64,000 nt of DNA. Origin: Natronolimnobius sp. AArcel1. GTDB lineage: Archaea > Halobacteriota > Halobacteria > Halobacteriales > Natrialbaceae. Position 1 is the stretch's first letter; each line of letters starts with the position of its first letter. The position numbers and the translations under genes are program-made. Below the pieces are notes generated by a model, which saw nothing but the letters and a program-made list of their open reading frames with translations, made no database searches and had not been told where the DNA came from. Below, piece after piece: positions 13 through 45,380 of the stretch. The stretch is taken from NCBI RefSeq assembly GCF_011043775.1, contig NZ_JAAKXY010000002.1, positions 124,001 through 188,000 on the forward strand, written 5' to 3'.

Positions 13-1893
13 ATGAACGTCGTGCCGGATACGAGCGTGGTCATCGACGGCCGCGTCTCGGCGACGATAGATGATGGGCAGTTCGAGGGAGCGACGATTT
101 CGGTGCCGGAAGCCGTCGTCGCAGAACTCGAGGCGCAGGCCAACGACGGCATCGAGAGCGGCTGGGATGGCCTGGAGGAACTCCAGCGTCTCGCCGACCT
201 CGCTGACGAGGGCACGATTACCCTCGAATACGTTGGTGAGCGGCCGAACGCTATCGAGCGCGGCCACGCCTCCGAAGGCGAAATTGACGCGCTGATCCGT
301 GACCTCGCAGAGGACCTCGAGGCGACATTCCTGACGAGCGATATCGTCCAAGCCGAAGTCGCGCAGGCGAAAGGCCTCGATGTCGAACACATTGCACCGG
401 AGGTCCGAGAGGTCGATGTCGGGACGCTCGCTGTCGAGAACTACTTCGACGACCAGACCATGAGCGTCCACCTCCGCACGGACGCGGTGCCGAAAGCCAA
501 GCGAGGCGAACTCGGCGAGATGCGCTACGAGCCGATTGCCGATGACCCGCTCGAGGAGTCAACCATGGACGAGTACGCCCGCGAGGTCATCGACGCCGCC
601 AAGGAATCGTCCGATGGCTTTCTCGAGTTGTCACAGCCAGGCATGAAGATTGTCCAGTTCCGGGACTACCGGATTGCCGTCGGTCGCCCGCCGTTTTCGG
701 ATGGCATCGAGATCACCGCCGTCCGACCAATCGCGCAAACGGATATCGACGATTACGACAACGCCGAGGAGTTGAAAGACCGACTGCTCGAGCATCAGCG
801 TGGTGTCCTCATCTCGGGTGCGCCGGGGGCCGGGAAGTCGACGTTCGCGCAGGCGGTCGCACGCTACATTTCGAATCACGATTACTCGGTCAAGACGATG
901 GAGAAACCGCGTGACCTGCAGGTCGGTCCCGAAATCACGCAGTACACCGAACTGGGCGGGGAGATGGCAAACACCGCAGACGCTCTCCTCATGGTTCGCC
1001 CGGATTACACCATCTACGACGAGGTCCGCAAAACAGACGACTTCGAGGTCTTTGCGGATATGCGCCTCGCAGGTGTCGGGATGATCGGTGTCGTCCACGC
1101 GACCCGAGCAATCGACGCCCTCCAGCGCCTTGTTGGCCGCGTCGAGCTCGGGATGATTCCCCAGGTTGTCGACACCGTCGTCTACATCGAGGCGGGGGAA
1201 GTCCACACCGTCTACGATGTCCGAACGGAGGTCAAAGTCCCCGCCGGACTCACCGAAGAGGACCTTGCGCGTCCCGTCATCCAGGTGACGAACTTCGAAA
1301 CTGGCGAGCCAGAGTACGAAATCTACACCTTCAACCGACAGGTCGTCACCGTCCCACTCACCGACGACGAGGGCGGCCCCGGCAACGAGTCAGGCGTCGA
1401 CCGCATCGCAAAGCAGGAAATCGAACGCGAAATTCGCTCGATCGCACGCGGCTACGTCGATGTCGAACTCAAAAGCCAGGACAAAGCCGTCGTCTACGTC
1501 GAAGAGAACGACATCTCAAGCGTCATCGGTAAAGGCGGCGGTCGAATCACGGACGTCGAGAACCGTCTCGGAATCAACATCGACGTTCGCACGCACGACG
1601 AGAATCCCAACTACGGGGCCGGCAGCGGAACGGCAAACGCCGGCGCGAGCAGCGATGGTGGCGGCCAGGCCGCCGGACAGATGGTCACCCCCGAGGTCAC
1701 CTCGAGACATATCGTGGTCCCAGTCGATGGCAACCACGGCGAGACTGTCGAGGTCCAGGCCGGTGGCGACTACCTCTTTACCGCGACGGTAAGTCGCGGG
1801 GGCGAAATTCAGGTATCTCGAGGGAGTGCGATTGCCGAGGAGTTAGAGCAGGCAATCGACCGGAAAGAGCCGGTGACGGTCGTGCCATCGTAG
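13..1893 (+). CDS. PIN domain / VirB11-like ATPase / KH domain protein
   Basis: 626 residues. A PIN nuclease-like domain fills about residues 1-130, with acidic residues D6 and D12 at the start. A secretion-type (PilT/VirB11-like) ATPase follows, with Walker A GAPGAGKST near residues 269-277. A KH RNA-binding motif (SVIGKGGGRITD) lies near residue 503, then a Gly/Ala/Ser linker and a small C-terminal beta domain. This domain order is the archaeal COG1855 family, usually thought to act on RNA at or near the ribosome; the biochemical role is not established. The ATG is only 13 bases from the window edge, but the PIN fold begins right after it, so the N-terminus looks complete. The last 29 codons are copied twice more downstream. 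Confidence 0.93.
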   Translation: MNVVPDTSVVIDGRVSATIDDGQFEGATISVPEAVVAELEAQANDGIESGWDGLEELQRLADLADEGTITLEYVGERPNAIERGHASEGEIDALIRDLAEDLEATFLTSDIVQAEVAQAKGLDVEHIAPEVREVDVGTLAVENYFDDQTMSVHLRTDAVPKAKRGELGEMRYEPIADDPLEESTMDEYAREVIDAAKESSDGFLELSQPGMKIVQFRDYRIAVGRPPFSDGIEITAVRPIAQTDIDDYDNAEELKDRLLEHQRGVLISGAPGAGKSTFAQAVARYISNHDYSVKTMEKPRDLQVGPEITQYTELGGEMANTADALLMVRPDYTIYDEVRKTDDFEVFADMRLAGVGMIGVVHATRAIDALQRLVGRVELGMIPQVVDTVVYIEAGEVHTVYDVRTEVKVPAGLTEEDLARPVIQVTNFETGEPEYEIYTFNRQVVTVPLTDDEGGPGNESGVDRIAKQEIEREIRSIARGYVDVELKSQDKAVVYVEENDISSVIGKGGGRITDVENRLGINIDVRTHDENPNYGAGSGTANAGASSDGGGQAAGQMVTPEVTSRHIVVPVDGNHGETVEVQAGGDYLFTATVSRGGEIQVSRGSAIAEELEQAIDRKEPVTVVPS

Positions 1894-2280
1894 CCGTACC
1901 GCGAACAGAGTGAGCGGCCTTTTTTAGCGTAGATTTTTTCGAGAAGCGGTTCGCGAACGAAGTGAGCGAACCCGACGAGAAAAAAGGTACGTGCGCGAGA
2001 TTCAGGTATCTCGAGGGAGTGCGATTGCCGAGGAGTTAGAGCAGGCAATCGACCGGAAAGAGCCGGTGACGGTCGTGCCATCGTAGCCGTAGCGCGAACA
2101 GAGTGAGCGGCTTTTTTAGCGTAGATTTTTTCGAGAAGCGGTTCGCGAACGAAGTGAACGAACCCGACGAGAAAAAAGGTACGTGTGCGAGATTCAGGTA
2201 TCTCGAGAGAGTGCGATTACCGAGGGATTTGAGTAGACGATCGACCAGAAAGAGCCGGTAACAGTCGTTCGCTCGTATGG
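1805..2280. repeat. 192/193-bp tandem repeat duplicating the 3' end of the PIN-ATPase gene
   Basis: The block starting with the last 29 codons of the upstream gene (ATTCAGGTATCTCGAG at 1807) recurs at 2000 and again at 2192, giving periods of 193 and 192 bp. Each of the first two units holds the coding tail, the stop codon, a GCGAACAGAGTGAGCGG hairpin, a T-run and a second hairpin (CGCGAACGAAGTGAGCG). The second copy keeps the reading frame but has no gene body, so it is untranslated debris. The third copy is cut at about 2280 and has drifted (stop codon lost, several substitutions). The hairpin plus T-run may be the transcription terminator of the gene. Confidence 0.88.
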
Positions 2281-2293
2281 AGTCGATTCCTCG

Positions 2294-3547
2294 CTACCAC
2301 GGACGAACTGAGTCGCGGTCGCCCTGTGTCGTTCGGAATCCGTACAGTTCGTCGTCCGCACGGACGATAAGCCGGTCACCGACGAGATACGTCTCGTCTC
2401 CACACTGCAAATCTGTCGGCGGGCGGACATCCCAGCGGGGCTCTCCACTACTCGAGCGGGCGCTGAGACGGCAGCCATCGGTTGTCGTGGGATCACCAGT
2501 CACATCGTAGACGCCGTCGGCGTCCGCGACTGGTGCCTCATGAAATGAGTCGAACGACTCTACCCAGAGACGCTCACCCGCAGCGGTGTCGATCGCCTCG
2601 AGTTGCCCCTGTGTATAGTGATACAGCCGGGTATCGTCGACAACGATTGGGATGCCTGCAACGCTGTTTTCGGAGACGACAGTGGCTCGGCGGCTGCCGT
2701 CGGGATCGAGAAGGCGTACGTCGCCGCCGTCGGACTCGATCCACAGGGCAACACTCGAGTCGACGGCGACGAGCCACGATGGAACGCCGGCAAGTGAGCG
2801 CGTCGCGCGGATTTCGCCGTCGGTCGAAATGCTATACAGCGTCGGGTCGGTGGTACTCGAGGCTGAGTCATCCGACGCGTCACTCGGTTCATCGTCGGGA
2901 ACGGCCACTACCCAAACGGTCTCGTCGGTGATCGCAACCAACTCGAGTCGCTGATCGTCGAACGTGGTCGGCTCGAGGACGAACTGCTCGGTGCCATCGT
3001 CGGCGGCGAGTGCGACGAGGTGGTCACGGGCGGCGACGACCAGCCCGTGACCCGCGACGAGTGTGGGGAACTCATCACTCGAATCAGCATCGCTGTCGGC
3101 ATCGGTGTCAGTGTCGGTGTCGGCAGACTCGAGTGGTGCGCTCCAGCGCGTGTGTGCATCGCTGCCGTACTGAGAGCTGGACGAATCCGAGTCGTCATCA
3201 TGCTCGAGGGCAACGACTTGCTCGTCTTCGACCTGCATGTAGACGCGTCCATTGGCGACCATTGTCTCACCCTCGAGGGTGGCGTCGGGGCTGCCACTCC
3301 AGGCGAGGGAACCGCGTGGCGTGTACGCGCTAACCCAGCCGTTCGAACTGATGCCGTAGAGACGTTCGCCATCGGCGTGCCAGTGGGCGATTGGCGAGCG
3401 ATACAGCCCTGGACGGGTCTGAATGGAGACGCGCCACGCCTGATCGCCGGCGGCCGGCTGGTAGCCACAGCCGGCGACCGATGCACCACCGGCGGTGGCG
3501 ACTGCAGCGAGGAGCCGTCGACGCGAGAGTGCGCGCTTGTCGGTCAT
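2294..3547 (-). CDS. PQQ-binding-like beta-propeller lipoprotein
   Basis: 417 residues. The N-terminus has a triple-Arg motif (residues 9-11), a short hydrophobic stretch and a lipobox ending SVAGC with Cys27, so it is probably a Tat-exported lipoprotein on the outer face of the membrane. The rest is a series of beta-propeller repeats of the PQQ/BamB-like type (for example VANGRVYMQVEDEQVVALEH and VDDTRLYHYTQGQLEAID), with an Asp/Ser-rich insertion around residues 120-150. The start codon overlaps the stop of the upstream M48 protease by 4 bp, so the two are translationally coupled. The ligand is unknown; such propellers usually act as scaffolds. Confidence 0.85.
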   Translation of the reverse strand: MTDKRALSRRRLLAAVATAGGASVAGCGYQPAAGDQAWRVSIQTRPGLYRSPIAHWHADGERLYGISSNGWVSAYTPRGSLAWSGSPDATLEGETMVANGRVYMQVEDEQVVALEHDDDSDSSSSQYGSDAHTRWSAPLESADTDTDTDADSDADSSDEFPTLVAGHGLVVAARDHLVALAADDGTEQFVLEPTTFDDQRLELVAITDETVWVVAVPDDEPSDASDDSASSTTDPTLYSISTDGEIRATRSLAGVPSWLVAVDSSVALWIESDGGDVRLLDPDGSRRATVVSENSVAGIPIVVDDTRLYHYTQGQLEAIDTAAGERLWVESFDSFHEAPVADADGVYDVTGDPTTTDGCRLSARSSSGEPRWDVRPPTDLQCGDETYLVGDRLIVRADDELYGFRTTQGDRDSVRPW

Positions 3548-4608
3548 CGCTGCTCCCCTCGCTGGTCGCGAGCAAGAGCTCGCAGTCGGTCGATCCGCTC
3601 AGCTGTTGGCGGATGCGTCGCCGGAAAAATATCCATGCTGATGAGTGATTGTGTGTCAAACGCCTGTGAGTCGAGCGGGACAAGACACAGGGCCTCCGTG
3701 CCACCGTCGAGTGTCCGGAGATCCGAATCCGGGACCTCGGATATCGTTTCGTCCAGTGACTCGAGGGCACTTGCAAGCGCGGCAGGCGAGCCAGTGATAG
3801 CCGCTGCAGCCTGGTCGGCCACGTACTCACGCTCACGCGAGAGCACGCGATGGAGCAGGACGCTCCCAGCCCAGAATAACACCGAAATCGCAAGCGTCAG
3901 GACCGCACACACCATGGCGACGAGAAAAACCACGGCGAACGAGCGCGTATCGCCGCTGCGGCGAGTCGAAAGCCCGCTCCCCGAGCCAAGGAGTCGGACG
4001 GAGCCGTAGATGACGTAAAATGCGACCACTGCGAGATAGTATGTAATTGTCGGCACGAGCCACGCCACGGTCATCAGACTCGCATCTCGATTCTCGAGAT
4101 GGGCGAGTTCGTGGGCCAACACAGCCTCGAGTTCGTCGTCAGTGAGTGTCTCGAGGAGGCCAGTTGTGACGACGATGGTGCCGCCAGAGTCATCGCGTTG
4201 ACGAATCGAGTTGCCGCCCGCGACGGCGAACGCGTTCGGAGCACCAGTCTCCGTGACAGCAAGCGCTGGTTTTGGTGCATCGGCCTGGGCTGCGACGCGC
4301 GTTAGTGCCGCGTGAGCCGCGGGGTATGCGTCGCTCGAGACTGTCCGTGCGCCGACTGACCGGCAGACAGCCCGTGGGCCAACCCAGTACTGCACCATGA
4401 GCGCGCCGACAACGGCAGTCGTCAGCAAAACGGGGTCAACGTACAACTGTCCGTGATACGGTCGGTCGTGTACCCACTCGAGGAGGGCAAGTCCAACGGT
4501 GTTACCCAGAAAGATCACCGTGTAAACGAGCACAAACGGAAGCGCGATGACGAGACCAAGTGCGACAACTAGCCGAAGTCGGAGAGTGGAGAGAGCAGCG
4601 GGAGACAT
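3544..4608 (-). CDS. M48 family zinc metalloprotease, HtpX-like
   Basis: About 354 residues from the ATG at 4608. Two N-terminal membrane segments are followed by the zinc site HELAH at about residues 166-170 in the context VLAHELAHLENRD. Two more hydrophobic segments and the downstream Glu-containing part (SREREYVADQAAAAITG) follow; this supplies the third zinc ligand in M48 enzymes. The role is presumably membrane protein quality control. An in-frame start 99 bp upstream exists, but TATATG-like sequence at 4641-4648 puts transcription start near 4618, so 4608 is preferred. The gene forms a two-gene operon with the downstream propeller lipoprotein, a possible partner or substrate. Confidence 0.87.
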   Translation of the reverse strand: MSPAALSTLRLRLVVALGLVIALPFVLVYTVIFLGNTVGLALLEWVHDRPYHGQLYVDPVLLTTAVVGALMVQYWVGPRAVCRSVGARTVSSDAYPAAHAALTRVAAQADAPKPALAVTETGAPNAFAVAGGNSIRQRDDSGGTIVVTTGLLETLTDDELEAVLAHELAHLENRDASLMTVAWLVPTITYYLAVVAFYVIYGSVRLLGSGSGLSTRRSGDTRSFAVVFLVAMVCAVLTLAISVLFWAGSVLLHRVLSREREYVADQAAAAITGSPAALASALESLDETISEVPDSDLRTLDGGTEALCLVPLDSQAFDTQSLISMDIFPATHPPTAERIDRLRALARDQRGEQR

Positions 4609-4708
4609 CGCGAGTACTGTCATCGTATCGGCAATACCACCATATAACACTACTCGTTCAGATTCAGAGAGAGAAATTCGACAGTCACTCATAGGCACAC
4701 TCCCCACT

Positions 4709-4785
4709 ACTAGGTGTTTAAGGATTAGATCTATATACCAGACGATTGTCTACGTGTAGTAGAGAACACAAAGTGATCCAATACA
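4709..4785. promoter_or_regulatory. Intergenic promoter region before nadE
   Basis: A plus-strand TATA element (CTATATACC) lies at about 4731-4738, roughly 50 bp before the NAD synthetase start, implying a short leader of about 25 bases. The divergent M48 gene uses its own TATA sequence at 4641-4648. Confidence 0.5.
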
Positions 4786-5700
4786 ATGGGTGCAGAAAGT
4801 AAGACGTTCGTCTATCCAGGATGCGGCGTACAGAACGGCCCGTTCGTTACGGCCGACAGCGACCTCGAGGAGGTTCGTGAACGAATTATCGACGACATTC
4901 GGGCAACTGTCGACGATGCAGGCGCGACCGGTGTCGTCGTCGCAATGAGTGGCGGCATCGATTCGACAGTGACGGCTGCACTGGCCGTCGAGGCACTGGG
5001 CGGCGAGCACGTTCTCGGATTGGGATTACCCTGTCACAAGGCAGATCAGGCACACGTCAGCGACGCACGGACAATTGCGGACGGGCTCGGCATAGAATTT
5101 CAGGAGATCCACCTCCGGCCGCTGCTCGAGGCGTTCAAAACTGCGGTCGACCCAGCGCTCGAGACGGGACGTCAAGCAGACACGACGCGCCCTGTCGAAC
5201 GAAACGATGCGCTCGGAAATGTGACGGCGCGGCTGCGGATGGTCTGTGCGTACTACGCAGCGAACCGACGGTCGCGTCTCGTTCTCGGGACCGCAAATCG
5301 CTCGGAGTTCCTGCTTGGCTACTTCACCAAGTATGGCGACGGAGCCGCCGACACGTACCCAATTGGAGACCTCTACAAAACAGAGGTACGTGCCCTCGCT
5401 GGTCGTATCGGCGTCCCCCGCCGAATTGTTAGCAAGGAACCAACAGCTGGGTTCTGGGCCGACCAGACCGATGCGACCGAACTTGGTGCTTCCTATGACG
5501 CAATTGATCCGTTCTTGCACCAGCTCTTCGAGACGGACACCACCGTTAGCGAGGCAGCAACAAACTGTTCGATCGACCTCGAGACAGCTCGCTCGCTTGC
5601 CTGGAGATCGGCAGAGACGGCGCACAAACGCGCCCAGCCGCCAACGCCCGGTGTCGTCGACCGATCCGACTCGAGCGCTGAGTTCGGATGCGATCAGTGA
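4786..5700 (+). CDS. nadE: NAD+ synthetase
   Basis: 304 residues. It catalyses the last step of NAD synthesis, ATP-dependent amidation of nicotinate adenine dinucleotide. The ATP-pyrophosphatase P-loop SGGIDST is at residues 55-61. Further family motifs are LGTANRSEFLLGYFTKYGDGA and the KEPTAGFWADQTDATELG segment. No glutaminase domain is present, so it probably uses ammonia directly. The protein is somewhat longer than many archaeal NadE proteins, mainly at the N-terminus (about 50 residues before the P-loop) and in an acidic/Ser C-terminal tail. It stands alone; NAD salvage partners are near 55-59 kb. Confidence 0.93.
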   Translation: MGAESKTFVYPGCGVQNGPFVTADSDLEEVRERIIDDIRATVDDAGATGVVVAMSGGIDSTVTAALAVEALGGEHVLGLGLPCHKADQAHVSDARTIADGLGIEFQEIHLRPLLEAFKTAVDPALETGRQADTTRPVERNDALGNVTARLRMVCAYYAANRRSRLVLGTANRSEFLLGYFTKYGDGAADTYPIGDLYKTEVRALAGRIGVPRRIVSKEPTAGFWADQTDATELGASYDAIDPFLHQLFETDTTVSEAATNCSIDLETARSLAWRSAETAHKRAQPPTPGVVDRSDSSAEFGCDQ

Positions 5701-5728
5701 TCCTCGCACCGATCAATTAGTACTGTGA

Positions 5729-6142
5729 TTATGACGTCGCCTCTTCGAAGTACAGATCCGGATTCCGCCACCAGAAGAGTCCCCACGAGAGCATGAAGCC
5801 ACCACCCATGGCGAGGATGTCCTGAATCACGCGTGGAAGGCCAAATCCGATGATGGCCGCAAGCGTCAGTGTCGAGCCGATAAGCGCCCCGAACAGGACG
5901 AACGTAAGGTCGCCAATAATTCGTTCAGTCGGATGGTCCCAGTAGTGCTGGCGATGGTCGTCGTACCAGACGCCGACGTAGATCAACACCGGCGCCATCA
6001 TCGTGATGACGGTGACGATCTGATACGCCTCTTCTAATCCCCGCGGGTCTAAGATAGCCGCATTGATCGCCGTCGAGAGAAACGACATCGCAAGCAACCC
6101 GATCAGCAGCCAGCCCCACCGTGGGAGCCGTTCTTTGTCCAT
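5729..6142 (-). CDS. Small four-helix membrane protein, unknown function
   Basis: 137 residues with four predicted membrane segments (about residues 10-30, 42-60, 80-100 and 105-125) joined by short charged loops, the largest being YDDHRQHYWDHPTERIIG. No catalytic motif is visible. It lies tail to tail with nadE. I do not recognise a characterised family. Confidence 0.75.
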   Translation of the reverse strand: MDKERLPRWGWLLIGLLAMSFLSTAINAAILDPRGLEEAYQIVTVITMMAPVLIYVGVWYDDHRQHYWDHPTERIIGDLTFVLFGALIGSTLTLAAIIGFGLPRVIQDILAMGGGFMLSWGLFWWRNPDLYFEEATS

Positions 6143-6206
6143 ACTGAGGTGACAGTCACCGAGCCAAAATAATCCTGCTGTTCTCAGTTACGGGGCAGAA
6201 CAGACG

Positions 6207-6500
6207 TTACTCCGCACAGCAGGCGTCTTTCTTCGGCGACTCCTCGACACCGTTTCCATCTGCTGCAAGCGGTTCTTCGAGTCGATAGAGGCTCTGGCGA
6301 GCATCAGCAAAGTAAATATCCTCATCGACGATTCCGATTTCCTCGAGTCGCTCGAGTGCATACCGAACCGTCCGGGCCGAAAGCATTGATTCCTCAACAA
6401 TCTGTTTCTGCGTCAGCGGGCCATCATACTCGAGAACCTTGAAAACAAGTTTGGCGCTCGGTGGCAAGTCTTCGATGTCCTCCCCGTCAGTCTCTGCCAT
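6207..6500 (-). CDS. Winged-helix transcriptional regulator (MarR/TrmB-like)
   Basis: 97 residues. A compact winged helix-turn-helix (PPSAKLVFKVLEYDGPLTQ, then the recognition-helix region SARTVRYALERLEEIG, then the wing YFADARQSLYRL) fills residues 10-75. A short tail ends in KKDACCAE, with a vicinal cysteine pair that could sense metal or redox state; that is inference. It is transcribed away from the large surface-protein gene, with a 477-bp gap between them, so it is a candidate regulator of that gene. Confidence 0.82.
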   Translation of the reverse strand: MAETDGEDIEDLPPSAKLVFKVLEYDGPLTQKQIVEESMLSARTVRYALERLEEIGIVDEDIYFADARQSLYRLEEPLAADGNGVEESPKKDACCAE

Positions 6501-6977
6501 ATTACGATTTGAAAACTCCCAGCAGTATAAAAGTTGAGCCTTCTACCCGGGAGTAGGCTGACAGCTTTCGCCATCATATTCGAGTAAAATACTGTCTCAG
6601 AAACGCTCTCCCGAGTGTGATGCAGTTGACCGACTGGTCAGGATTGGTGTCAACGAAGGACAGTGTGTAGTAGACAAATGGTCACTTTCTCGAAGACGAT
6701 AACGCAGTACTGCTCAGCGTAAATGAAGGTTGTGGCAGGTGGGCAGAGCTACAATACTGGGGCGCGCGACTGTCACTGTGTTCGCCCATAATTATTATGA
6801 ACTATTTATATTATAATAACTATATTTGAGTAGATTTTTATGATCGTGCTGTGAATCGCGGAAGTATATCGTGGTCGCGGGCACCAACAGTGTGACCGGT
6901 ACCCACAGGAACTCGAGCAGTCGGGAAGACAGCACACTCGAGAATGGGGTGGAGGGTCAACAACCAGTAGGGATCAT
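6501..6977. promoter_or_regulatory. Long AT-rich control region before the giant pilin-like gene
   Basis: This stretch of 477 bases carries no convincing gene. Around 6788-6842 it is unusually AT-rich for this genome, with several overlapping TATA-like elements (CTATTTATATTATAATAA at about 6801-6818 and ACTATATTTG just after). These lie about 160 bp before the downstream start, which implies either a long 5' leader or an upstream-regulated promoter. The region also contains the promoter of the minus-strand regulator that ends at 6500. Confidence 0.5.
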
Positions 6978-9900
6978 ATGACATCGGGCATCAATCGGGT
7001 AAGACACCGAAGTGGGAGCGACACAGACAGAAGCGTAAATCCAGTTGTTGGCGTTGTGCTGCTCATTGGGATCGTTCTCATCGGGAGCGCGCTGTTGTTT
7101 GTAACGGGGTCCACAGTTCTCGATTCAGTCGAATCGGAAGCTGATCGTGAGCAGGTACAGTTCTGTATCGATGAAACAGATCACCGACTCGGGACTGTTG
7201 CATCGACCGGGCACGGGCAAGCAATGGACTTCGACGAATCCGACTGCCAACCACAGCTAGCCGATAGCGGAACCGTTCTCGTTACCTGGTACGACGACGG
7301 CGAGCAGCCGACATGGGATGCAAGTAGCTCCGACACGGCAGAGACTACCCTCGGTGCACTCGAATTTAACGTCGACGGACAAACAATTGCCCATCAGGGT
7401 GGCGGTGTTTGGGACCTTTCGGACTCGAGCGTTAGCATCGAAAAACCGCCGGCAATCGGATTTGAGACCGATGCTGATGATGGCCAACTCAATTTGGATT
7501 TCATGCAGTTCGAAACCGCAATGGAGAGTGGATCGACTGCAATGGCCGAACGAAACTCGACTACTGCGATGAATCTACACGACGAACTTTCGTACGTGAC
7601 TAAAAATCAAGCAGGAGATAACTTCGCGCTCAGAATGGAAAGTAAGTACGCCGATGGCTGGGAACGTCACTTCAAAGACGAAGCCGAGAACGTCGATAGC
7701 TGGAGCGTTGATATCGACCGTGGCGACGAATACGTCGACGTACTGATTGAGGGGATGGATGCCACGAGCGTCGACGAACACATCGTCATCGAGGAAAACA
7801 ACGGACTGAACGAGCCAAACGGAGACCTCATTGATCAAAACCTGCTCGAGGAAAATCAGAATTTCCACATCAACGCAACGCTCGAAAACGTCGGTAGAGA
7901 GGCGGGCGATGCAGAGACGACAGTCACAATATGGGATGACGATGGAACTGAGATTGTCACGCAGTCACCTACTGCAGAACTTGACGCAGACGAGTCGATA
8001 GCCCTTCACGAGCAAAACGACTGGGAGAACAACAATAACGAGAATCAGTTCAACCCCACGCAGATCGGTCTAAGTCCTGGAACGGCCTACGAATACAATA
8101 TCGAAACGCCGAACGACACGTTGACCGAGAACGAGACGTTCTACTATCTCAGCGACGAGCCGACGTACACCATCGATACCGTCTGGAGTGACTCCTCAGG
8201 TGACGAGACCGAGATTAATGCAGACGTTCGAAACATTGGAACCACAGACGGAAACGAAGAGACGATCGAACTCGAGATTACCCGAGCAGGGGGTAGTGAT
8301 TCTATAACAGTGGATGGAGAGATTGAACTCGGCGCGACTGAAAGCGGGATCGTTACCTGGACGATCGATGAGTCAGACTGGCCGAACGGGACCTACGATG
8401 GGACCGTCACAACGGATGATGACGCAGAGGATGTCACTAAATTGTTCGAAGTCACGGATGGCGGCACGTTTGAAATCGAAGACGATCGTGGTATCCCCGA
8501 TACGCTGCAGGTCAACGGCACTGATGGACAGGTCATCACCGACGAAGATCCGGTCACAATCGGTGCGAACATCACCAACACGTACGACAGTACGCAGACC
8601 CAGAACGTGACGCTTGACGTGTTAGACGGTGACGGAAATACCATCGATGAGGACGAGACGACCCTCGAGCTCGAGGCCAATGAAACTGCGCAGTTCGAAC
8701 TCAATAGCGAGCAGTCGCTTCCGGCTGGAGAGATTTACGAGTACAACGTCTCAACCGAAGACGACCACCTCGACGATCATGGCTCGTTCCTCGTTGCCGA
8801 GGAGCCATCCGAGTTCACCATCGAGAACGTGGAACTGAGCGACGAACCGCTCGTACCGAATGACTCGGTGACTGTCACTGCCGATATCGAAAACCAGGAT
8901 ACGACCGACGAGCAGTTCGTCTGGCTCGAAGGCTTCGATGATTCGATTGTCGCGACCAACGAAACTGAACTCAGCCCCGGCGAACGGACGAACGTCGAAC
9001 TCGAGTGGGGCTCCGTCGACGTTCCGGACACCGGGGACCCGACCATGACGGTCGGAACGGAAACTGACAATGAAACCATCGCCCCTGACGTCGAGCCGCG
9101 TCTCGAAATCGACGACGTGGCCGCTACAGACTCAGTTCATCAGGGAGGAACGGTCGGTATCGACGTCGATCTCGAGACGATCGGTGGAACTCCGGATCAG
9201 GAGGTCGTCCTCGAGGGGTTCGACGGTGAGCAAGTCTCGTCGGCACAATGGAGTGAAGGGCCGGGAACCGCCGAGTTCGAGTATTCCGTACCGCACGATG
9301 CGATAACGGATCGGGTGACGGTCAAAACGGACGACGATGATACGGAGGGTGTCGTCGTCGTCGAACGATGGGGGCCTGACTGCGGTCACGTTTCGCAATC
9401 CGAGCGAGACGATGACGGTTATCTCCTCATCGAGGACGCAGATCAACTCCAGTGTATCGACAATGCTGGGCCACATGACGACCACCACAGTCAGTACGAC
9501 AGCCTCACCGACAACTATCGGCTGGCAAACGATATCGACGCCCATGGAACGGAATACTGGAACGGTGGGGCTGGCTTCGAACCAATTGGCGAACAGGAGA
9601 ATGGTGGTCTCGAGTTTGGGGGTGATTTCGACGGCGACGGACATATCATCGAGGGACTTCACATCGACCGATCAAACGAGGATTTCGTCGGGCTGTTCGC
9701 CGCCAATTCAAACTTCCATAACGCAGGTGAGGTCGGCGAAGGATCGCGGATTCACAACCTGCGACTCGAGGATGTCTCGGTTCACGGCCAGCAGGTTACT
9801 GGTGGGCTAATCGGGGCTGCTGGCGGTGTCATCGAAGACGTCCGCGTCAGTGGGACCGTCGAAGCAGAATATCAGGAAGTCGGTGGGATCGCCGGCTCAG

Positions 9901-39997: not shown

Positions 39998-40591
39998 CTA
40001 TTCGTCGTCGCCGTAGGCCGACAGCGACTGGTCTGTTCGCTCGGTCTGGTGACTGGTGGCGACGCCTGCGAGGTGGGGTGCTTCGGGGACGATCAGTTGC
40101 TCGCAGGCGGTCTGGCAGGCGTTCGTGCTGCCGGGGAGACAGAAGACCGGCGTGTCAACGGCGATGCCAGCCGTCGCGCGCGAGGCCATGGCGCGCGTGC
40201 CGACCTCGTCCCACGACAACGAGCGGAACAACTCGCCGAAGCCTGGCAGTTCGCGCTCGAATAGCGCGGACGTGGCCTCCGGCGACACGTCGTCGGCCGA
40301 GACGCCCGTTCCGCCAGTCGTGATCACGATATCGATGTCCCGGCGCGCGACGAGTCGCCGGACGGCCGTGCGAATCGCCGCGTAGTCGTCTCGCACGAGC
40401 ACGCGCTCGTGTACCTCGTGTCCCTCGGCCTCGAAGCACGCTTCGACGGTGTCGCCGCCCGGATCGTCCGGCGTTTTGTCGTCGGACTGCGCGCGCGAGG
40501 TCGAGACCGTCACGATCCCGACGTAGAGAGGGTCGATGATATCGTGGCCGTGGTGGTCGGTGCCGCGTCGCTCGTCTCGGTCAGTTGGCAT
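39998..40591 (-). CDS. moaB: Molybdenum cofactor biosynthesis protein MoaB
   Basis: 197 residues from the ATG at 40591. The MoaB/Mog fold is clear: YVGIVTVSTSRAQSDDKTPD, RDIDIVITTGGTGVSADDVS and VDTPVFCLPGSTNACQTACE. It binds molybdopterin during adenylylation. The ATG sits about 27 bp below a TATA (CGTTTATGACGG near 40620), which argues against an upstream start at 40678. Molybdoenzymes are compatible with the denitrification (nos) genes here, but this is not specific. Confidence 0.92.
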   Translation of the reverse strand: MPTDRDERRGTDHHGHDIIDPLYVGIVTVSTSRAQSDDKTPDDPGGDTVEACFEAEGHEVHERVLVRDDYAAIRTAVRRLVARRDIDIVITTGGTGVSADDVSPEATSALFERELPGFGELFRSLSWDEVGTRAMASRATAGIAVDTPVFCLPGSTNACQTACEQLIVPEAPHLAGVATSHQTERTDQSLSAYGDDE

Positions 40592-40724
40592 ACGTGTCTG
40601 TTCACAGTGAACCGTCATAAACGGTCGTCGTCCGTGGCTCGTCAGGTGTCGTTTCCAGTTGGACGTAGCTCCCGCCACCGCCGTTCGGAACGTTTTACTG
40701 CCACTCGAGCAACCTGTCTCTCAG

Positions 40725-42191
40725 ATGGTCACTCGAGCCGTGTCCGAGCGGGTCCCTCGGCCCGTAACGTTCGTGCCGATTCTCATCGGAAATCTGGTGC
40801 CGCTGGTCGGCGTGCTCGAGTTCGGCTGGGACCCGGCGACGCTGGTCGTCATTTACGCACTCGAGGTACTCCTCGCGTTTCCACTCGCCGCGGGGAAGGC
40901 GCTGTTTGCGGGCAAGCCGCCTCGAGTCAAGGACCTCGAGACCGAAGATGGCGAGGGAGACTCGAGTGTCATCAGCGTCGGAAACACCGAGCTGGCACGC
41001 AAGCGCGGGCACCTGCGGCTCGTGTCGTGGCTTCCCCCGATCTATCCGCGGAACCTGCCGTTTATCGGTGCGTTGTTGTTTGCGACCGTGTGGTCGACGC
41101 TCTTTCTCGTCGCCTTGCTGGCCGAAGTTGCAGTCGGCGAAGCCCTTGCGCGGCCGGAAGTCTGGTTCTGTGTTGCCGCGCTGGTGAGCGGACAGGTCAT
41201 CGAGACCTGGCGTGACTATTTCCGCGGCGGACGCTACGAGACGACCTCGCCGTACGCAGTCATCGAAACCCCGGCGCGACAGGCCTTCTTCCTCGTATTC
41301 GTCTTGTTCTTCGTCGCGGAAGCGAGCGGTGCCATCGTCCTCGGCGCGTTCGTCGCCGTCAAACTGCTCGTCGACTGGTCGGCGTTTCGCGCGACCAACG
41401 GCGGTAGCGGGCGACTCACTGGCTGGCTCTCCGGTCCGGACGACGAGGGTGAACCCCTCGAGGCACTGGACGTCCCCACAGACGAGCCGGATGCCCGATT
41501 CTCGACACACACGCGGACCGTGGTTCTGACCGGCGTTCTCCGCACACTGATCAAACCAGCCCCGTTCTACATCGGGATCGTCCTTCTCGCGTGGTTCCTC
41601 GCCCTCGCCGTTTTGGGAGGCACCGCCAGCGGCAGGGCCGCGATCGCGCTGACGGTCGGCATCAGTCTCCTCGCGTTCGCGGCGCTCGTCGGCTTTCTGG
41701 CGATTAAAACAGCCGAACATATCCTCGAGTACGCTCCACTCGAGTACCGCCGATACGACGATCATCTCGTCGCGTACGATACGTGGGTCGACGAACCGCA
41801 GTGGGCATTGGCGCTGTATGAAGTCCGTGACGTCAGTCTCATCCACACCCGATTCCCCGACCGAGTGTACGACACCCGCACGCTCGAGGCCCAGATGGGC
41901 TGGGGCGACGACGAGGCGACGCGAGAACTCGGCCCCGTGACAGACGCCCCGGCGTTCGTCGAGACGTTCGAGTTGCCGATCACGGAGGCAGCACTCGAGT
42001 TGGAGCCACTTAACCGGCGAGTTGCGACGGCTGCAGTCGTCCCCCTCGGCGGCGTGCTTGTCGGTGCAATTATCTTCGCGGCTGGGCCGTGGCCGCTAGT
42101 GGGTGCGCTTCCCTACGTTGTCTTTGGACTGCCATTTCTCGCACTCGTCGTGCATGGCCTCTGGCGACAGGCATACCCGGAACCAGCGTAG
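40725..42191 (+). CDS. DUF6498 domain membrane protein
   Basis: 488 residues. Nine or more membrane segments, with two long soluble loops (KPPRVKDLETEDGEGDSS around residues 75-105, and the middle DDEGEPLEALDVPTDEPDAR). The N-terminal part (FVPILIGNLVPLVGVLEFGW, then DPATLVVIYALEVLLAFPLA) resembles the DUF6498 family. A TTTTACT box about 30 bp before 40725 supports this start. Function unknown. Confidence 0.83.
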   Translation: MVTRAVSERVPRPVTFVPILIGNLVPLVGVLEFGWDPATLVVIYALEVLLAFPLAAGKALFAGKPPRVKDLETEDGEGDSSVISVGNTELARKRGHLRLVSWLPPIYPRNLPFIGALLFATVWSTLFLVALLAEVAVGEALARPEVWFCVAALVSGQVIETWRDYFRGGRYETTSPYAVIETPARQAFFLVFVLFFVAEASGAIVLGAFVAVKLLVDWSAFRATNGGSGRLTGWLSGPDDEGEPLEALDVPTDEPDARFSTHTRTVVLTGVLRTLIKPAPFYIGIVLLAWFLALAVLGGTASGRAAIALTVGISLLAFAALVGFLAIKTAEHILEYAPLEYRRYDDHLVAYDTWVDEPQWALALYEVRDVSLIHTRFPDRVYDTRTLEAQMGWGDDEATRELGPVTDAPAFVETFELPITEAALELEPLNRRVATAAVVPLGGVLVGAIIFAAGPWPLVGALPYVVFGLPFLALVVHGLWRQAYPEPA

Positions 42192-42221: not shown

Positions 42222-43535
42222 TTAGCGCTCACTCGAGACTACAGCGCTCTCGCCCATTCCAGTCGGCGCACGATTCTCGTAGACGAGCCAGTCGTCGTCC
42301 ATCTCCGCGTCAGTGAGCAGACACTCATCAAGACGCGCCTCGAGCGCCTCGAGATCGATGTTACGCCCGATGAGCGCGAGTCGGGTCTCGCGGTCGCCCC
42401 ATTCGTCGTCCCACGGAAGGTCAGGCTGGCCCTGTCGGTACAGTTCCTGGCGTTCCTCGGAGAAGCTGGCGATCCAGCGGCCCGTGACCTCGAGTGCGGT
42501 CTCGGTGCCGGCGTAGCTCATCGTGATCGCCTGCTTTTCGCGGCCGGCAATCCAGCACAGCCCTTTCGCGCGCACGAGGCCATCGGGGAGGTCCGACAGG
42601 AACGCCTCGAGGCGTTCGGGGTGGAACGGCCGGCGGCGATGGTAGGTGTCGACAGCGATGCCGTAGCGTTCGGGTGGGTGGCGGTGATCGTGGTCGTGAT
42701 CATGATCGTGGCCGCCGTGATCGCCATGCTCGTGGTGGTCACCGTGGTCATGGTGGTCGCTGTGTTCGTGCTCGTGATCACCATCAGCGTCAGTGAGGTC
42801 ATCGTGCTCGTGCTCGCGCTCATCCGCTTCGATCACCTGCTTCCAGCCTGCTGCTTCGGTCGCCGCCTCGAGATCGAATCGCTCGACTCCCAGTAACTGA
42901 TCGGGCTCGAGGTCGCCGTGCTCGCTCGTGATGAGATCAGCGCGGGGCTGGAGCGTCTCGAGCAAGGCAACGACGCGCTCGCGTTCGCCGTCGTCGACGA
43001 GGTCGCACTTGTTGACCACGAGCAGGTCACAGAACTCGACTTGCTCGAGGACCAGATCGGCGAGCGGGCGCGTACCAGTGTCGTCGTCACCCTCGATTTC
43101 GGGTGGGTCGTCGACGGACGAATCGGCGAAGCGGTCATAAAATCGCCGCGCGTCGATCACCGTCACGACGGCCTCGAGATCGTAGGGGCCGCCGGCGGGT
43201 CCGCGGACAAATTGGCGGGCAATCGGCTCGGGTTCGCTGACGCCGGAGGCCTCGACGACGAGATGGTCGAACTCGTGTTCCTTCCAGAGTTGAATTACCG
43301 CCTGCGAGAGTTCATTGCCGAGGCTACAGCAGATACAGCCGTTTTCGAGGGCGACAACTTCCTCGCCAGTCTCGAGGTCGGTGCGCGCTTCCACGAGGTC
43401 GGCGTCGACGTTGACCGCGCCGACATCGTTGACCAACACGGCGATATCGCGCTCAACCGTCTCGAGTAGCCTCGAGAGCAGCGTCGTCTTCCCCGCGCCG
43501 AGTTCGCCGCTAAGGACGGTGACCGGAACAGACAT
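42222..43535 (-). CDS. CobW/ZNG1-type GTPase metallochaperone with His/Asp-rich insertion
   Basis: 437 residues. G3E GTPase: P-loop GELGAGKTT (10-18), metal-binding CICC (Cys67, 69 and 70), and the GTPase motif NKCDLV (with the ADLVLEQVEFCDLLVVNKCD helix). A long His/Asp run of about 50 residues (DHEHEHSDHHDHGDHHEHGD and so on) follows, then the CobW C-terminal domain (RRRPFHPERLEAFLSDLPDG, VRAKGLCWIAGRE). The His stretch is a metal reservoir; zinc, nickel and cobalt are candidates. It is paralogous to the adjacent gene. Confidence 0.92.
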   Translation of the reverse strand: MSVPVTVLSGELGAGKTTLLSRLLETVERDIAVLVNDVGAVNVDADLVEARTDLETGEEVVALENGCICCSLGNELSQAVIQLWKEHEFDHLVVEASGVSEPEPIARQFVRGPAGGPYDLEAVVTVIDARRFYDRFADSSVDDPPEIEGDDDTGTRPLADLVLEQVEFCDLLVVNKCDLVDDGERERVVALLETLQPRADLITSEHGDLEPDQLLGVERFDLEAATEAAGWKQVIEADEREHEHDDLTDADGDHEHEHSDHHDHGDHHEHGDHGGHDHDHDHDHRHPPERYGIAVDTYHRRRPFHPERLEAFLSDLPDGLVRAKGLCWIAGREKQAITMSYAGTETALEVTGRWIASFSEERQELYRQGQPDLPWDDEWGDRETRLALIGRNIDLEALEARLDECLLTDAEMDDDWLVYENRAPTGMGESAVVSSER

Positions 43536-43540
43536 TGTAC

Positions 43541-44749
43541 TTACTGCGAGAGCGCGAGTTCACGTCGGCTTTCCGGTTCAAACGGGTCGAGGTAGGTGGT
43601 CCAGTCCGCACCCATCTCAGCGTCGGTGAGCACACAGTCGTCGAGTCGGTCGATCAGCCCGCTCTCGTCGAACTCGCGCGCGATGAACACCAACCGGGTC
43701 ATTCGGTCGCCGTACTCCTCGTGCCAGTCATCTTTGAGACCGGGGCGAGCGGCGAAGTACTGCTCGCGTTCGGCTTTCGGCAGGTTCGCAAGCCACGTTC
43801 CGGAGGGGCCAGCACGGACGGACGTGCCAGCTTTGTCGACGCCCATCGCAACGTCTTCGCGGCCTGCACTCCAGAAGAAGCCTTTCGCGCGGACAACTTC
43901 GTCCGGCAGGTCCGACAGCAGTGTGGCGATGCGCTCGGGGTGGAACGGCCGGCGGCGCTGGTAGACGAACGAGGTGACGCCGTGTTCCTCCTGAGGGTCG
44001 TGATGATGGTCGTGCTGAAGCTCGTGTTTCCAGCCCGCTGAATTCTGGGCGTGCTGGAAGTCGAACTCGCCGGTGCCGAGAATCTCGTCCGGGTCAATCT
44101 CGCCGAACTCCGTCCGGATGATCTCCGCGCGCGGCTGCAAGCGCTCGAGAACGGCCTCGATCTCTGCAAGGTCCTCGTCGGGGACCAGATCGCACTTGTT
44201 GAGCAGGAGTACGTCACAGAACTCGATCTGATCGAGCAGGACTTCCTCGGGAACGCGGCCCGAATCGCCCTCGAGGTGGCCGTCCTGATCCGTCAGCGCC
44301 GCGCCGGAGTCGAACGACTCGAAGAAGCTGTGGGCGTTGACCACCGTCACCATCGTATCCAGCGCGTAGGTGTCGGTCGGGTCGAACTCGGCGTCCTCGA
44401 ACCCCATCGCGAACGTCTGGGCGACGGGAATCGGCTCGGAGATGCCGGAGGATTCGACCAGCAGGTAGTCGAACTCCCGGCGATCGGCGAGGCGACCAAC
44501 CTCGTCTAACATGTCGCCGCGTAGGCGACAGCAGATACAGCCATTCGACATCTCGATGACCTCTTCCTCGCCACCCAGATCGGACTGCTGGGTGACGTGC
44601 TCGGCGTCGACGTTGACCTCGCCCATGTCGTTGACGACGACGGCGACCTCTAAGCCGTGGTCTGCGGTCAGTACGTGATTGAGGACCGTGGTTTTGCCAG
44701 CGCCAAGACTACCGCTCAGAACTGTCACGGGGATTCGGCTATCGTCCAT
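43541..44749 (-). CDS. CobW/ZNG1-type GTPase metallochaperone (paralogue without long His run)
   Basis: 402 residues. P-loop GSLGAGKTT (13-21), CICC (Cys71, 73 and 74), NKCDLV and the C-terminal CobW domain (RRRPFHPERIATLLSDLPDE, VVRAKGFFWSAGRED) match the neighbour throughout. Only a short His stretch (HDHHHDPQEEH) replaces the long one next door. Five bp separate the genes. Such pairs insert metal into different client proteins, or divide storage and delivery. Confidence 0.92.
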   Translation of the reverse strand: MDDSRIPVTVLSGSLGAGKTTVLNHVLTADHGLEVAVVVNDMGEVNVDAEHVTQQSDLGGEEEVIEMSNGCICCRLRGDMLDEVGRLADRREFDYLLVESSGISEPIPVAQTFAMGFEDAEFDPTDTYALDTMVTVVNAHSFFESFDSGAALTDQDGHLEGDSGRVPEEVLLDQIEFCDVLLLNKCDLVPDEDLAEIEAVLERLQPRAEIIRTEFGEIDPDEILGTGEFDFQHAQNSAGWKHELQHDHHHDPQEEHGVTSFVYQRRRPFHPERIATLLSDLPDEVVRAKGFFWSAGREDVAMGVDKAGTSVRAGPSGTWLANLPKAEREQYFAARPGLKDDWHEEYGDRMTRLVFIAREFDESGLIDRLDDCVLTDAEMGADWTTYLDPFEPESRRELALSQ

Positions 44750-44852
44750 ATCGGTTGTGAATACGAACCCAGGTCTTGTTAATGTTAGTTATTACGTTCG
44801 CAGAGCACAAGACATAACAAATACTATTATCTCGAGGATCTATTTTCATATC
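44750..44852. promoter_or_regulatory. Divergent control region between cobW pair and nikR-like gene
   Basis: 103 bp, AT-rich. It holds two inversely placed TTGTTA/TAACAA hexamers (44776-44781 and 44815-44820), which could be binding half-sites. TATA-like sequences lie on both sides. Because a metal-responsive regulator is divergent from metallochaperones, autoregulation and control of the cobW pair from this one region is the likely arrangement; the operator itself is not proven. Confidence 0.45.
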
Positions 44853-45380
44853 ATGCCCGTCGTCAGCGTCTCGATGCCTGCCGAACTGATCGAGCGACTC
44901 GACGCCGTCGCCGACGATCACGACTACACCGGCCGCAGTGAGGTCGTCCGCAAAAGCGCCCGCGCGTTGCTCTCGGAATTCGACGACGAACGCCTCGAGA
45001 ACCGTCCCCTTGCTGGCACCGTCACCGTCCTCTACGAGTTCGCAAACCAATCAGTCGAACGCCGCGTCACGGACATTCGCCACGACCACGAGACAGCTAT
45101 CGTCACGAACGATCACAGCCACGTCGGCACCGGCGACATCCGAACCGGCAGCACTGACACTGCACCCGCTGACGACGCCGCCGATCCGGTGGCAAAAGCG
45201 ACGATCAACCGCACCCAACCCAGTTACTGCCTCGATCTGTTCGTCCTCGAGAGCGACCTCGAGGAGATTTCGCAGTTCGTCGGCCAACTCCGCGCAGTCG
45301 ACGGTGTTGAGACCGTCGACTACTCGCTGGTGCCGTTGGATTCGGTCGGACAGCTCCCGGAGACACAACAGAACACGTAG
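44853..45380 (+). CDS. nikR: NikR-like ribbon-helix-helix regulator
   Basis: 175 residues. The N-terminus is a ribbon-helix-helix DNA-binding domain (VVSVSMPAELIERLDAVADD, GRSEVVRKSARALLSEF). A C-terminal ACT-like ligand domain has His pairs (IRHDHETA, NDHSHVG) and the conserved SYCLDLFVLESD strand with Cys, matching the metal-site region of NikR. A 25-residue Asp/Thr insertion lies between. It presumably senses nickel or another divalent metal. The start is fixed by a leaderless-type context at 44853. Confidence 0.85.
   Translation: MPVVSVSMPAELIERLDAVADDHDYTGRSEVVRKSARALLSEFDDERLENRPLAGTVTVLYEFANQSVERRVTDIRHDHETAIVTNDHSHVGTGDIRTGSTDTAPADDAADPVAKATINRTQPSYCLDLFVLESDLEEISQFVGQLRAVDGVETVDYSLVPLDSVGQLPETQQNT

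Follow-up and report, generated by a model that had tools for sequence, protein, structure and literature searches.

A candidate zinc-limitation module of a haloarchaeon under a NikR-family regulator

Two adjacent COG0523 GTPase genes (G1 and G2) and a divergently transcribed gene of the NikR family, found in a stretch of 64,000 nucleotides of Natronolimnobius sp. AArcel1 DNA (the window), are read here, with moderate confidence, as a zinc-limitation module of this haloarchaeon under the control of the NikR-family protein. With sufficient zinc, the metal-loaded regulator would occupy an inverted repeat overlapping the two promoters, and would repress its own gene as well as G2-G1, G2 being the first gene at the divergent promoter, ahead of G1. 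When zinc falls, the promoters would open and the two GTPases would pass the scarce metal to client proteins, with the His/Asp-rich linker of G1 probably collecting or buffering it, and the module may be part of a wider zinc regulon with a common promoter box. Zinc is proposed as the effector from the company that the genes keep; the proposals of repression, of direct binding by the regulator and of what each GTPase does likewise rest on sequence. The features of the locus are the following (window coordinates).

39998-40678, minus strand: MoaB gene (PF00994), a neighbour of G1 in many relatives
42222-43535, minus strand: G1, COG0523 GTPase with a His/Asp-rich linker (PF02492, 1.4e-45; CobW_C, 5e-22)
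43541-44749, minus strand: G2, ZigA-like COG0523 GTPase with a short conserved His stretch (PF02492, 1.4e-50; CobW_C, 2.7e-21)
44750-44852, no strand: shared divergent control region, 103 bp, from the sequence and its conservation among relatives
44780-44797, minus strand: proximal element resembling the zinc box, directed towards G2 (19.4 bits, the second-highest score of the window)
44781-44828, no strand: extended imperfect inverted repeat with 14-bp halves (44781-44794 and 44815-44828) and a 20-bp spacer, from the alignment and a symmetry test
44788-44818, no strand: core inverted repeat GTTAT-N21-ATAAC, exact match
44812-44829, plus strand: proximal element resembling the zinc box, directed towards the regulator gene (20.1 bits, the highest score of the window)
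44853-45380, plus strand: NikR-family regulator, 175 residues (NikR_C, 1.2e-15; RHH_1)

The GTPase pair and its divergent regulator

Both GTPases are of the CobW type, as stated in the preliminary description, with PF02492 and CobW_C (PF07683) matches in each. The P-loop, CxCC and NKxD motifs are present in all relatives parsed (43/43 for G1 and 48/48 for G2). The identity between G1 and G2 is only about 43% (L039 copies compared with the window queries), and the closest paralogue of G2 in its own genome is an unlinked third GTPase (61% over residues 1-303). For both proteins the best NCBIfam match is the ZigA model NF038288 (310.2 bits for G1 and 430.9 bits for G2, both below the curated cut-off of 600 bits), followed by the MRF model (143.3 and 173.3 bits, respectively). 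Cobalamin-synthesis CobW belongs to the same G3E/COG0523 superfamily and has the same domains, but G1 and G2 score far lower with the CobW model TIGR02475 (107.5 and 139.6 bits, both below its curated cut-off of 332.1) than with that of ZigA. They are probable zinc-delivery GTPases.

The His/Asp-rich insertion first noticed in one paralogue corresponds to the linker of G1 (roughly residues 240-290, encoded at about 42666-42818), which contains 19 His among the 75 residues parsed in the window copy; in relatives the number of His ranges between 6 and 31 (parsed in 23 of 43). The companion statement, that the second paralogue has nearly none, needs correction, G2 retaining a short stretch with 6 His per 31 residues, the length of which is constant across relatives, with 3-7 His (38 of 48 parsed). 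The G1 linker, His-rich though variable, would suit zinc collection, and the short, constant motif of G2 a step different from that of G1.

The assignment of the regulator as a NikR-like protein with His and Cys ligands was confirmed. The closest structural matches of its AlphaFold model (mean pLDDT 76) are NikR structures (2bj7, E 7.7e-9, and 6mrj), and in the alignment with solved NikR sequences H77, H88, H90 and C126 sit at the ligand columns, all four metal ligands of NikR (three His and one Cys) being kept. Among 41 intact divergent regulators (the G249 copy, with no long frame, was left out), H77 is found in 41, H88 in 40, H90 in 36 (with Cys in 4) and C126 in 39. An insertion of approximately 30 residues (about 92-124), disordered or of low confidence in the model, precedes the Cys ligand. 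The scores with the NikR equivalog models are all below the curated cut-offs (TIGR02793, 43.9 versus 175.45 bits; NF002815, 53.9 versus 83; NF003381, 58.6 versus 105). With the NikR ligands unchanged, zinc and nickel are not told apart by the sequence of the regulator. A single origin of the divergent NikRs was also considered and is unsupported by the tree (5 changes versus 32.5 with shuffled labels), which was built on few columns and in which the bootstrap is not settled.

In a protein search, NikR-family matches were found in 284 of the 293 genomes of the order. The orthologues of G2 were defined as the 48 matches of at least 550 bits in these genomes (next score, 473), and all 48 loci were retrieved. 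At 42 of them a NikR-family gene diverges from G2, with its start 63-111 bp away, as had been noticed for the control region at 44750-44852 that the GTPase pair shares with the regulator gene in the window genome (G000; 4.56 Mb in 22 contigs). Such recurrence indicates that the arrangement is old and more than chance. The divergent gene is absent at six loci (G215, G252, G207, G112, G193 and G117), and G1 was recognised at 43 of the 48. The start codon of the divergent nikR of G249 is seemingly missing (L140, G249:C2:366001-386000, around 10761); this gene is pseudogene-like, and of its operator the left half is retained, the right one having decayed.

MoaB, which stands close to the GTPases at 38 of the 46 cluster loci scanned, is probably a bystander or loosely co-expressed; in the window a DUF6498 gene of opposite orientation (40659-42191) stands between G1 and the MoaB gene. 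A role of MoaB as a zinc-free paralogue was set aside, the window copy looking like the sole MoaB-type gene (the best other match, L169, reads CinA-like by eye, with 1 of 5 other matches read).

The inverted repeat and the wider zinc box

Both halves of GTTAT-N20/21-ATAAC are present at 33 of the 42 loci that have the regulator, with a spacing of 21 bp in 25 and of 20 bp in 8; in G023 and G054 the 21-bp form was seen by eye, with weaker left halves. Across the loci of relatives the spacing of the operator is fixed, whereas the distance between the genes varies and the spacer sequence is free. The two-fold symmetry of 30 aligned sites (alignment A2, which omits the 12 of the 42 loci that fit poorly or have the 20-bp form) was reached by only one of 2000 column shuffles. 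With one mismatch allowed, the left inner element was found at 34 of the 42 loci with the regulator and at one of the six without it (P 0.004, uncorrected for kinship). Less can be concluded where the right half is lost, since that half would also serve the promoter of the lost regulator gene itself. Operator conservation and co-loss argue for direct control of G2-G1 by the divergent regulator.

With the operator models R1 (built on the first 15 sites) and R2 (30 sites), no second site besides the regulator's own locus was found in the window genome at E values up to 10. The search of 48 genomes with the 30-site model, under stricter filters, placed the best match upstream of G2 in 42 of them, including the 30 training sites, while five gave no match and that of G112 lies elsewhere. 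The short motif GTTAT-N21-ATAAC with one mismatch occurs at 27 places in the window genome versus 29 for the reversed control; it is, thus, uninformative alone, and the longer models were used. A second exact match to it (C5:443104), before a histidine kinase-like gene, was set aside as likely due to chance. All loci were also scanned with a matrix, which suggested weak secondary sites, a few of them within AT-rich promoters (L104:8039 and L147:8379); as the random control was of uniform composition, these count as a lead at most.

Two weak matches to the operator model start 54 and 58 bp before the third ZigA-like GTPase gene (in G148 and G144). The promoters of this third GTPase in Natrialbaceae-like genomes have in common TTAATAA-N14-GATAATAAC, followed by a TATA-like element; this zinc box, elsewhere written TTAATAA-N14-GATAATAA, precedes both znuA and the third GTPase. 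A 40-column model (R3) was built on nine third-GTPase promoters only, with znuA promoters outside the training set. In the window genome (4.56 Mb) it matched two places, namely the training site and one approximately 26 bp before the start of a znuA-family gene. It found 37 places in 27 of 40 other genomes of the window's family and 13 places in 8 of 40 genomes of other families (32 without a match), the box being largely confined to the former. Among the 45 of 52 places that were examined, 13 lie before the third GTPase and 2 look like degenerate copies of that type. A further 16 immediately precede znuA, and 1 precedes the gene of a His-rich lipoprotein that is itself followed by znuA; 1 stands before a FAD oxidoreductase gene and 1 in G023 within the G2/regulator region. 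The other 11 have no visible zinc link. When the places of the third-GTPase type are set apart, a link to zinc is seen in 19 of 30. A candidate wider regulon sharing the promoter box would include znuA, the third ZigA-like GTPase and at least one His-rich lipoprotein.

Several other genes were observed in the surroundings of the box. His/Asp-rich lipoproteins adjoin znuA genes at L105:4440-5420 and L267, the latter (G023) with a zinc box directly upstream of the lipoprotein gene. At L104 (G000:C3:651000-664000, 1275-8015) three genes for secreted proteins or lipoproteins with repeated H-x-HAC-x-H motifs, with no Pfam match in the two tested, adjoin a znuA-family gene with a zinc-box promoter, and may represent a candidate family of extracellular zinc scavengers. 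A FAD/NAD-binding oxidoreductase accompanies znuBCA or the third zinc GTPase (L094:930-2222, L096:2029-3282, L047, L228, L229, L254, L257 and L265), the G023 copy having its own zinc box.

At the locus itself, the top three matches to the proximal half of the box in the whole window (20.1, 19.4 and 17.0 bits; next, 12.4) all lie within 44780-44832, and the top two face one gene each. Upstream of G2 the proximal box is the best of its locus in 29 of the 48 cases (27/42 with the regulator and 2/6 without it). A 27.9-bit box is kept in G117, which has no divergent regulator, and boxes precede znuA also in genomes whose NikR matches exclude the divergent paralogue, so that the box must be read by one or more further factors. 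Furthermore, with the regulator's operator found only at its own locus, as is the case with R1 and R2, the zinc box seen more widely may be the target of a different factor. It is, therefore, possible, albeit doubtful, that within a zinc module the core NikR of the order or an unrelated protein reads the TTAATAA-N14-GATAATAA box everywhere, and that the divergent NikR tunes its own locus only; the joint retention of operator and regulator, and the decay of the inner element where the regulator is missing, speak against it. The core NikR perhaps reads the wider box, being a candidate by virtue of its spread (284 of 293 genomes, versus 78 of 293 with urease) and of its position beside znuBCA in L053 and L066. 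The picture of its self-control through the box is mixed, with a strong box in some genomes only: it is the best of the locus in 5 of the 21 core nikR promoters tested, and weak (3.4 bits) in the window genome. As a tentative scheme, core NikR may be the haloarchaeal zinc-uptake regulator at the box of znuA and of the third GTPase, and the divergent paralogue the zinc sensor of the GTPase pair, with NikRs replacing Zur.

Zinc as the more likely metal

The preliminary description left the metal open among Ni, Co and Zn; the znuABC linkage, the ZigA models and the shared box now favour zinc, which is most likely the metal rather than nickel. The linkage emerges at 23 more distant loci (L094, L137-L156, L167 and L168), where the usual gene string is FAD oxidoreductase, znuB, znuC, znuA, MoaB, G1, G2, regulator, second NikR and Cbi, and where znuABC adjoins the GTPases in 12 cases. 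A scan of 23 loci of the window type, a set without L046 and the window itself, gave no znuABC next to the GTPases in the retrieved stretches. At L094 the domains ZnuA, ABC-3 and Zip were verified, and the best models of its solute-binding protein, permease and ATPase are those of AdcA, AztB and AztA, all for zinc, with scores below cut-offs. Of the earlier reading, metal handling by the pair under a shared control region is upheld by conservation, operator and znuABC linkage, whereas direct control by the regulator and a division of buffering and delivery between the two paralogues stay proposals.

An ordinary NikR that senses nickel (or cobalt), with GTPases that deliver either metal, is unlikely. 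It would agree with the conservation of all four NikR ligands (H77 in 41/41), with the presence of CbiMQO (CbiM/CbiO) genes and of another NikR (NIK2) nearby at several distant loci, and with urease in the window genome, which implies that nickel is needed too. However, it would leave unaccounted for znuABC at 12 of the 23 distant loci, ZigA as the best GTPase model, the box in common with znuA, and a NikR family that is present in 284 genomes of the order compared with the 78 that have urease.

Proposed repression and relation to known systems

Archaeal BRE and TATA elements are expected roughly 25-40 bp before start codons. The conserved halves of the repeat overlap the positions expected for both promoters, so that occlusion would be the simplest model of repression. 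That the repeat consists of back-to-back promoters only, with no operator, would fit the location of both conserved blocks in that range but is very improbable, considering the fixed spacing despite varying intergenic length and free spacer, the loss of the left inner element at five of the six regulator-less loci, though G2 still needs a promoter there, and the two R3 matches per 4.56 Mb, which show that the box is not a general promoter.

The locus would be a variant of the known COG0523/znu zinc-limitation module. With the bacterial Zur-regulated modules (YciC and ZigA, with znuABC) it shares GTPases of the zinc type, adjoined by znuABC and ZIP genes at some of the distant loci, and an operator common to the GTPases and the regulator gene; it differs in its NikR-family regulator, its archaeal host with no Zur seen, and its two dissimilar GTPases with a third one elsewhere under its own box. 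In passages of Haas et al. the archaeal genomes sequenced by then are described as being without a recognisable Fur or Zur, and a DtxR-type ZntR is predicted in Methanosarcina, covering znuABC and a COG0523 gene (PMC2770081). That regulon is alike as an archaeal candidate zinc regulon with these genes, but ZntR is DtxR/MntR-like and from a methanogen (PMC2770081), whereas a NikR-type regulator and a different box are found here. The passages on H. volcanii znuA1C1B1 name a sRNA, with NikR and CobW unmentioned in them (PMC8155600). Among titles and abstract openings of the open-licence PMC literature no description of a NikR-family zinc regulator in haloarchaea was found. The candidate zinc regulon outlined for Natrialbaceae-like haloarchaea comprises a defined box, target genes and a NikR-family candidate regulator.

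The nickel regulator NikR and the protein under study have in common the ribbon-helix-helix and ACT-like fold, the four ligand positions and an inverted-repeat operator. The differences are the zinc-type GTPase neighbours, znuABC in relatives, the insertion before the Cys ligand, and half-sites (GTTAT/ATAAC) that are 20-21 bp apart, the E. coli NikR operator being GTATGA-N16-TCATAC. The four-ligand NikR site serves as a model of selectivity for nickel; should zinc prove to be the effector, this site would gain a zinc-sensing relative, and the NikR label would mislead annotation across the order, in which the family is nearly universal (284/293 genomes). Clusters of several NikR paralogues, one of which adjoins CbiMQO, were observed at L094:12698-18040, L142 and L151, and would lend themselves to a comparison of specificity for nickel and for zinc.
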